The notes under the pieces were generated by a model, which worked only from the letters and a program-made list of their open reading frames with translations, was not told where the DNA came from and made no database searches. Of a stretch of DNA of 33,868 nucleotides, positions 32,417 through 33,868 are shown one piece after another. Each line of letters opens with the position of its first letter. The first letter of the stretch is position 1. Both the position numbers and the translations under genes were made by a program. This DNA comes from Thiomicrorhabdus sp. (GTDB lineage Bacteria > Pseudomonadota > Gammaproteobacteria > Thiomicrospirales > Thiomicrospiraceae), in the NCBI GenBank assembly GCA_015487495.1, contig WFPP01000009.1:1-33868 (forward strand), read 5' to 3'.

Positions 32417-32750
32417 ACTGGAGATCCAGTCCAAAGCATAAGTTTTATGGGGGGGAAAAATTCAATTTTTTTGAAATACCTCGCTCCTACTGTAATATGC
32501 AATTTTCTATCCTAAATCAGTCAAGCGCCAGTTTTGGTAGCTCATTGTTAAGCATGGCTATATCGTATTTATTCGCACTCACCCAATCAAAACGCTGGGT
32601 TTTTATTAATTCCGTAGTCTGCTGTTACATGGGCTATTAAGCACTCTTTTTCCCTTATTATTTTTATCACGTATTTTCTGAGTTCTTTGCTATATTTCTA
32701 TTGTGCCATCAGGAAGTTGTTGATTTTGCAACGCTGATGGTTTGATGAAA
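32417..32750. other. Non-coding flank between citrate synthase and the CRISPR array
   Basis: About 330 bp, AT-rich. Just after the gene are seven G (32449-32455) and an AAAAATT/AATTTTT palindrome with a T-run (32456-32472), which may act as the gltA terminator. The stretch ends with a hairpin at 32706-32740. It is more likely the trailer than the leader of the array, because the adjacent repeat is the decayed one. Confidence 0.5.
32706..32740. other. Hairpin next to the CRISPR array end
   Basis: CCATCAG (32706-32712) pairs with CTGATGG (32734-32740), and inside, GTTG (32716-32719) pairs with CAAC (32729-32732). It lies 10 bases before the decayed terminal repeat. On the minus strand it would end the array transcript, but it lacks a T-tract. 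Confidence 0.45.
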
Positions 32751-32786
32751 AGAGTAGGAAACTCTGAAACGGGGCTCTGGTTAAAC
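32751..32786. repeat. Degenerate terminal CRISPR repeat
   Basis: The right two-thirds (from CTCTGAA, 32762, to GGTTAAAC, 32786) matches the array repeat with one change (AAC for AGC). The first 11 bases differ at most positions. The segment AGGAAACTCTGAA (32756-32768) instead matches 13 bases of the dispersed repeat at 12658-12670. Confidence 0.8.
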
Positions 32787-33868
32787 CTATGCTAAAACTT
32801 ACACGTAAGCAACAAACACAGTCTTAATCCCCTCTGAAGCGGGGCTCTGGTTAAACCTATGTTACAACTTTCAGCTACGCAGCAAACGTCTTAATCCCCT
32901 CTGAAGCGGGGCTCTGGTTAAACAATTCAACCCTCACACTATCGTGGAAATAGAGGTGTCTTAATCCCCTCTGAAGCGGGGCTCTGGTTAAACGGTACAG
33001 GACGCGCTAAGGATTTAAACATCAGGTCTTAATCCCCTCTGAAGCGGGGCTCTGGTTAAACCGCACTTTGCTGGGAAACAAACAAAGTATGCCCGTCTTA
33101 ATCCCCTCTGAAGCGGGGCTCTGGTTAAACTAATGTAAATTCTTATAAAGCAGTACGAGAGTTAGTCTTAATCCCCTCTGAAGCGGGGCTCTGGTTAAAC
33201 TGGCAAATCATGAATATTTATTAGTAAACCCACAGTCTTAATCCCCTCTGAAGCGGGGCTCTGGTTAAACACAAACACAGGCAACAAACGCTATTCACGT
33301 CAACGTCTTAATCCCCTCTGAAGCGGGGCTCTGGTTAAACTATATCATGAGGGATATAGCCATCGGCAACAAAGTCTTAATCCCCTCTGAAGCGGGGCTC
33401 TGGTTAAACGCGAATATAATCAGCTTACGCTCGAAGAAGAGCGGTCTTAATCCCCTCTGAAGCGGGGCTCTGGTTAAACTGATTTGCAGGTCATTTTCAA
33501 ATTAGAGCGTACGTCTTAATCCCCTCTGAAGCGGGGCTCTGGTTAAACAGACGTCAAGCAAAGATACTATAAGCACAGAAAGTCTTAATCCCCTCTGAAG
33601 CGGGGCTCTGGTTAAACAAAAAAGCGTATCGAAAACGAACTGAAGGAAAAGTCTTAATCCCCTCTGAAGCGGGGCTCTGGTTAAACATTGACTCAGTCAG
33701 TAATAATACGAGTCTGTGGGGTCTTAATCCCCTCTGAAGCGGGGCTCTGGTTAAACAACATTTGTGGACAACTTAGCGGAGTACTGTGAGGTCTTAATCC
33801 CCTCTGAAGCGGGGCTCTGGTTAAACGGAGAGATTTATGGAATAAAAGCGATATATATGTCTTAATCC
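32751..33868 (-). CRISPR. CRISPR array, 36-nt repeats, 16 spacers visible, runs off the window
   Basis: One degenerate repeat (32751-32786), 15 identical full repeats from 32821-32856 to 33791-33826, and 10 bases of another at 33859. The repeat is 36 nt: it starts GTCTTAATCCCCTC and ends GCTCTGGTTAAAC on the plus strand. Spacers are 31-34 nt. On the minus strand the repeat starts GTTTAACCAG, can pair CCCC with GGGG across GCTTCAGA, and ends with the 8-nt ATTAAGAC. Minus-strand transcription is preferred for three reasons: the left repeat is decayed at what would be its 3' end, exactly 8 nt follow the stem (like a type I/III tag), and no decay is seen toward the right. Against this, the plus-strand repeat end TTAAAC also resembles common 3' ends. 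No cas gene is in the window, so the type is not settled; leader and cas genes are expected to the right. Confidence 0.97.

Follow-up and report, generated by a model that had tools for sequence, protein, structure and literature searches.

The window analysed here, a stretch of 33,868 nucleotides (nt) that makes up the entire contig WFPP01000009.1 of a Thiomicrorhabdus sp. assembly (2.04 Mb, 132 contigs, 93.8% complete), ends within a CRISPR array whose spacers carry more A than T on the plus strand. The array belongs to a complete type III-A (Csm) system without a reverse transcriptase (RT). With a probability of roughly three in four, selection for guides antisense to transcripts leaves mRNA-sense spacers on the plus strand of this RT-less system. 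The identity of the targets, the activity of the system, and selection rather than biased uptake as the source of the bias are what we infer.

Base composition of the spacers

The window shares its last 148 nt, without a single difference, with positions 1-148 of contig C116 of the same genome, where the remainder of the array, with 29 more spacers, extends to an end at C116:2181. The full array comprises 45 repeats, each 36 nt long, and 45 spacers, which measure 31-35 nt, plus one degenerate terminal repeat; 47 repeat matches were obtained, two of them in the 148-nt overlap, which was counted once. All but one of the 45 repeats are perfect, the copy at C116:557-592 having a single mismatch.

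The 16 spacers in the window (532 nt, plus strand) contain 207 A, 119 T, 106 G, and 100 C, with A exceeding T in 14, equalling it in one, and falling below it in one. These counts, on which the original prediction from the window alone was built, were reproduced exactly, and the asymmetry persists in the rest of the array, where the 29 spacers outside the earlier count divide into 24 with A over T and 5 with the opposite (p 5e-4). Over all 45 spacers, A exceeds T in 38, T exceeds A in 6, and one is tied, giving an AT skew of +0.233 (binomial p 9e-7; p 5e-5 by orientation flips, the lowest value that 20,000 flips can give). G is in excess over C as well: of the 44 spacers flanked by intact repeats, 29 have more G, 11 have more C, and 4 are tied (p 0.006). 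This G excess agrees with a purine-rich coding strand. AT skew in the first, middle, and last third of the spacers amounts to +0.21, +0.25, and +0.24, respectively; as the A excess is present evenly in all thirds, an end motif was ruled out as its cause.

Coding signal of the plus strand

The plus strand had been described as coding-like, a view that codon scoring, a shuffle control, homologous spacer pairs, and third-position substitutions all sustain. Codon scores, derived from seven coding sets and validated with held-out pieces, preferred the plus strand in 36 of 45 spacers (67-81% for held-out true sense pieces). The maximum-likelihood sense fraction is 0.88 with a support of 0.72-0.97, and 0.5 is rejected by 8 log units; part of the 0.88 is the skew itself, since codon scores also reward A-rich strands. 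In 400 base-shuffle runs, plus was preferred in a mean of 28.1 of 45 spacers, and 36 or more were reached in 0.75% of runs. The mean codon score was 1.76 as observed and 0.33 after shuffling, with no shuffled run reaching the observed value. The codon signal goes beyond base make-up. The four strongest misses (spacers 21, 26, 33, and 35) are exactly the four spacers lacking an open plus frame, and these may be intergenic. Counting open frames was discarded as a strand test, as it does not discriminate (41 spacers open on plus vs. 44 on minus).

The top same-strand DNA matches among the spacers, namely the homologous pairs 0/1, 8/37, 11/28, and 16/19, all have one orientation, while the best opposite-strand matches are AT-rich only and lower. 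Members of the pairs are also alike as peptides, for example in VKQRYYKHR and VKQKYYKHR or in EDKKMEF, which occurs in both members. A fifth pair, 22/24, is weak, with a peptide similarity of 31 vs. 29 for the best opposite-orientation score. In the five pairs, 21 of 35 substitutions fall at plus-frame third positions (p 0.001), and in the four firm pairs 14 of 25 (p 0.016); pair frames were chosen by peptide similarity, which favours this result somewhat, and some minus frames also score well. Codon scoring and homologous pairs together suggest that plus is the sense strand for most spacers. Four to five overlapping pairs in 45 spacers informally point to a small number of target families, to small target genomes, or to favoured sites.

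A side observation concerns the two oldest spacers (window 32787-32820 and 32857-32887), which are homologous (24 matching bases out of 31) and whose translations would read MLKLTRKQQT and MLQLSATQQ. Both peptides presumably resemble the start of a LexA-type repressor, and the two spacers may stem from one and the same site in two related genes.

Guide strand and cas locus

An 8-nt tag in CRISPR RNA (crRNA) usually follows the repeat hairpin. Read on the minus strand, the repeat has a 4-bp GC hairpin followed by AUUAAGAC, and the leader and cas2/cas1 lie on the far side of the array, from C116:2182 onward. Because the hairpin and tag stand on the minus strand and the leader at C116:2182, the crRNA strand is predicted to be minus, as originally considered, and the guides would be complements of the plus-strand spacers. 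A promoter scan returned one weak site, on the minus strand at C116:2340-2312, with 9 of 12 matches (shuffles give 0.6).

The type III system that had been anticipated beside the array is present as a complete III-A locus on C116, with Csm1-5 and Cas6. In an NCBIfam profile search, Csm1, Csm2, Csm3, Csm4, and Csm5 all scored above curated cut-offs, Cas10/Csm1 reaching 647 bits with TIGR02578 against a cut-off of 170. LHDLGK and GGDD are legible by eye in the Cas10 translation, and we take them to be its HD and GGDD motifs. Cas6 remained under its NCBIfam cut-off (20 vs. 58.65 bits) and was clear in PADLOC (E 1e-71). Csm2-5 stand in one operon with Cas6 and a tag-ended repeat array lies beside cas1/cas2, which are the marks of type III-A.

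A DNA-targeting cas locus, which the original prediction had named as contrary evidence, was not found, and no type I or II locus shares the array: the 12 open reading frames (ORFs) scanned up to C116:14256 are type III or adaptation genes by NCBIfam, PADLOC, or Pfam, the scan having covered all but four ORFs of 90-113 amino acids (aa) that overlap genes or lie on the opposite strand. In the genome as a whole, cas3_core gave sub-threshold matches only, such as ordinary helicases also give, and Cas9 was not searched for genome-wide. There is a single Cas1 in the genome and its protein has no RT domain; the assembly gave no match to RVT_1 or to a group II RT, and no RT was found on C116:1-20000. 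Among 58 related genomes searched (its own included; 31 others of the same genus), this genome alone has a Csm1 above cut-off, so the type III-A system probably arrived by horizontal transfer.

Comparison with other arrays

Across the class, 369 genomes were searched for Csm1, of which 11 gave a match at E 1e-30, and across the phylum 398 genomes for Cas1, of which 76 gave a match at E 1e-20, the present genome included in both cases. From these, 80 stretches were taken (10 of 10 other Csm1 places and 70 of 90 other Cas1 places), followed later by seven more. Besides the array under study, 42 arrays of at least four spacers were obtained and 40 were grouped, leaving out L083 (Cas4-Cas1) and L097 (type not determined); L068 (3 kb), which has no repeats, stood outside the array scan, and L160 was dropped as a doubtful array.

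RT-less III-A arrays share the skew, and I-C and II-C arrays as groups do not, in what is a small sample. On the strand complementary to the crRNA, A outweighs T in every one of the 11 other RT-less III-A arrays, with 156 vs. 83 of their 263 spacers (p 3e-6). Positive arrays made up 5 of 14 in I-C and 8 of 13 in II-C, with 316 vs. 309 and 130 vs. 118 spacers, respectively. Control arrays are on average GC-richer; large I-C arrays at 46-52% GC (L100, L102, L094, and L109) are flat too. I-C and II-C were typed from the form of repeat and spacer, with Cas8c confirmed for 4 of the 14 I-C arrays and Cas9 for 2 of the 13 II-C arrays, and these arrays were oriented by rules on repeat ends.

Of the 11 III-A arrays, six (L075, L111, L115, L116, L120, and L124) have Csm1 on their own stretch, L118 and L122 are III-A by Cas1 clade and CARF neighbour only, and L155, L158, and L161 are arrays elsewhere in genomes with Csm1 loci. 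The III-A arrays are not independent, as seven belong to one Cas1 clade, L075 and L161 share one genome, and L111 and L122 share another. A further group of four type III arrays of other or unresolved subtype has Cmr2 at L112 and L117, Cmr6 at L126, and only sub-threshold RAMP matches at L114.

Origin of the strand bias

The original prediction had left two sources for the bias, selection and acquisition of RNA through an RT-Cas1; selection turned out to be the better reading, and the RT-Cas1 was not supported, with no RT domain in Cas1 and no RT found in the assembly. Selection is the leading account because an RT-Cas1 is very unlikely here. Under selection, the array would be transcribed on the minus strand, each crRNA being the complement of a plus-strand spacer, and ordinary Cas1-Cas2 would presumably cut spacers from invader DNA in either orientation. 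Only transcript-antisense guides would let the Csm complex bind RNA and activate Cas10, whose product, cyclic oligoadenylate, would then act on the CARF effectors. Cells carrying the opposite spacer orientation would be unprotected and lost, and surviving spacers would hold mRNA sense on the plus strand, with the A-over-T and G-over-C skew of AT-rich coding strands. Passages in Artamonova et al. 2020 (PMC7515739) describe such an outcome for a type III system of Thermus thermophilus without an RT, in which spacers taken up without selection derived from both strands and those that protected the cells had a very strong bias. In a survey of natural spacers, the text of Vink et al. 2021 (PMC8482600) that bears on strand choice gives coding-strand targeting as 65% for the type III average and 88% for Moraxella III-B, and there offers RT-Cas1 or selection as causes.

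Several observations weigh against selection for transcript-antisense guides. No age trend is seen, with A over T in 13 of 15 old, 11 of 15 middle, and 14 of 15 young spacers; the 15 newest are skewed like the 15 oldest, which fits instant selection and also biased uptake. No protospacer was found in phage records, plasmids, genomes of the genus, or IMG/VR, so antisense targeting of a real transcript is a step that we infer. None of ten coding sets yielded a skew of +0.233 in more than 0.5% of 3,000 draws. The four type III arrays of other or unresolved subtype are all positive, yet with only 47 vs. 42 spacers (p 0.67), and two I-C arrays lean towards A over T though they are not type III (L085, 31 vs. 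12; L098, 8 vs. 1). Pair 0/1 breaks the third-position rule, with 1 of 7 substitutions.

Biased uptake from DNA without an RT, with Cas1-Cas2 preferring the displaced coding strand or transcribed regions so that spacers enter pre-oriented, would account for the even skew over age. A review (PMC9048733) mentions, in the part concerned with uptake, that acquisition by the Staphylococcus epidermidis III-A system correlated with transcription and that Streptococcus thermophilus spacers were enriched on the encoding strand; the same part remarks that encoding-strand enrichment would not directly serve defence, and in T. thermophilus unselected uptake had no strand bias, as far as the relevant passages go (PMC7515739). 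Biased uptake is considered unlikely. Quite improbable is an origin from one replicon family with an A-rich strand and a fixed acquisition orientation unrelated to transcription. While the skew exceeds that of ordinary coding strands and the homologous pairs suggest few target families, such an origin is at odds with the lack of a spacer end motif, with a codon signal beyond base make-up, with the third-position substitutions in plus-frame codons, and with the sign shared by all 11 RT-less III-A arrays from other genomes but not by the I-C and II-C groups.

Copying of spacers from RNA by an RT, either an RT-Cas1 or a separate RT in trans, would yield the observed orientation, and about 6% of the genome is possibly missing from the 93.8% complete assembly. 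Besides the RT searches reported above, the Cas1 tree stands against it, as the own Cas1 does not group with two RT-Cas1 fusions (weak deep support, long branch), and the single RT-Cas1 array sampled, of type III-B (L080), shows no A/T skew (8 vs. 10). RNA copying is regarded as extremely unlikely.

Size of the A excess

For 45 random sense pieces of ordinary genes, the expected skew ranges from +0.01 to +0.16. The observed skew is larger than such pieces from any of the ten coding sets would give, and strand selection alone is therefore insufficient for its size unless the targets are unusually A-rich. Draws from the most A-rich set (L058) attained the count of 38 A-over-T spacers in 7.9% of cases, those from the other nine sets in at most 0.4%. 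The ten sets comprise six phage stretches from GenBank, two host stretches, and two IMG/VR stretches, which have a gene in common and probably represent a single virus; all ten come from chance hits and are not a phage survey. Either A is unusually abundant in the targets, or A-rich portions of transcripts are preferred by the system.

It is possible, albeit doubtful, that a second filter acts besides strand selection, by which RT-less III-A arrays would keep spacers from mRNA stretches A-richer than general coding sequence, e.g., early genes, gene starts, or other favoured stretches. Skews in the remaining 11 III-A arrays run from +0.07 to +0.21, with 6 above +0.091, the highest skew of four phage coding sets at 44-49% GC, and 5 not. 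The first 60 nt of genes are A-richer than the whole in 6 of 6 GenBank phage sets (+0.04 to +0.16), and a plausible start codon was seen by eye in spacers 0, 1, 25, 31, and 41; a preference for gene starts is only a lead. Two other candidate causes were rejected. Unstructured targets do not explain the excess, as sense spacers fold no weaker than mononucleotide shuffles and rather stronger (-0.73 kcal/mol, standard error 0.35), and neither do small genes, as gene size had no consistent effect on skew in eight viral stretches.

Protospacer searches

In phage records, the best matches were at E 0.2 for C116:1-2181 and E 4 for window 32787-33868, both at chance level. Plasmids were searched with C116:1-2181 only, the best match (E 4e-3) being to an Allochromatium plasmid, and nothing was taken as a protospacer. 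The same single query against 32 genomes of the genus (its own included) gave, among the best nine or fewer candidates per genome, nothing better than E 0.004 besides the array itself. IMG/VR was searched with eight codon-degenerate patterns covering 10 of 45 spacers, and six of the eight had no match. One pattern matched two contigs that share one gene, which presumably encodes a ribonucleotide reductase, and the other matched one contig with the spacer agreeing at 24 of 35 bases; both were judged to be chance.

The match to the Allochromatium plasmid, on NC_013852.1:19300-19807 of Allochromatium vinosum, joins three pieces at 75% identity, and this stretch is possibly a related CRISPR array or repeat.

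Features of the array and its surroundings

The features of the array and the adjoining locus are collected in Table 1. Rfam at gathering scores gave no match in C116:1-2400.

Table 1. Features in the window and on contig C116; positions without prefix are those of the window.
Feature	Position	Strand	Remarks
Degenerate terminal (leader-distal) repeat	32751..32786	-	first part decayed; 32750-32793 has 64% identity to the reference copy over 44 nt
Leader-distal (oldest) array part	32787..33858	-	16 spacers and 15 perfect 36-nt repeats; guide strand predicted as minus
Contig end identical to C116:1-148	33721..33868	none	array continues on C116, then leader, cas2, cas2, cas1, and csm locus (C116:2182-14256)
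Next repeat, first 10 nt	33859..33868	-	cut at contig end
Leader	from C116:2182, ~160 nt		adjoins array end at 2181
cas2	C116:2343-2708	-	
Second cas2	C116:2718-3005	-	
cas1	C116:3028-4086	-	
csm1, csm2, csm3, csm4, csm5, cas6	C116, beyond cas1		facing away from cas2/cas2/cas1
csx16	C116:11675-11971		same run as csm genes; over cut-off
Card1-like CARF nuclease	C116:12005-13138		same run as csm genes; CARF and endonuclease
NE0113 ring nuclease	C116:13171-14256		same run as csm genes; over cut-off

The two Cas2 genes between cas1 and the leader are distinct, and both kinds were also matched separately at L073, L074, L125, L126, and L128, where they flank cas1. In a tree of 53 Cas1 proteins, the Cas1 of this locus has a very long branch of 2.21 changes per column (median 0.34), which looks like fast evolution. 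Loss of an RT from an RT-Cas1 ancestor was considered and left no sign in this tree, in which the own branch is long and deep support is weak. A Cas1 query against genome contigs confirmed no relative.

Implications and comparison with known systems

The strand bias itself is already known, and the array is a well-supported further case of this pattern. The natural pattern agrees with the laboratory finding that such a bias needs no RT. Reading polarity from base skew is a modest step beyond the known bias; a narrow search of the open literature found no paper that reads type III guide polarity from base skew alone. The results suggest that base composition and codon signal are enough to reveal the polarity of a type III-A array even when none of its protospacers is known, and in the small sample this approach separated the RT-less III-A group from the I-C and II-C groups. 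Such a reading would help to orient arrays and to spot RNA-targeting arrays in uncultured genomes.

The system resembles the RT-free type III-A systems of S. epidermidis and S. thermophilus, which likewise have Csm1-5, Cas6, stand-alone Cas1 and Cas2, and CARF proteins, and differs from them in the two different Cas2 beside the leader as well as in Csx16, the Card1-like nuclease, and the NE0113 ring nuclease. With the RT-Cas1 type III-B system at L080 it shares a type III assignment and a Cas1 adjoining the array; at L080, however, RT and Cas1 domains are joined in one protein of 947 aa that also matches Cas6 weakly, in contrast to the plain Cas1 of the present system, for which no RT was found. 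As in the type III survey (Vink et al. 2021, PMC8482600), spacers whose guides can pair with mRNA appear to be favoured, although the sense fraction of about 0.88 was here estimated from base skew and codon scoring, without protospacers. Like the T. thermophilus type III system, as described in passages of its report (PMC7515739), the array combines the lack of an RT with a strong strand bias of retained spacers, which was demonstrated there by infection and sequencing and is read here from a natural array only.
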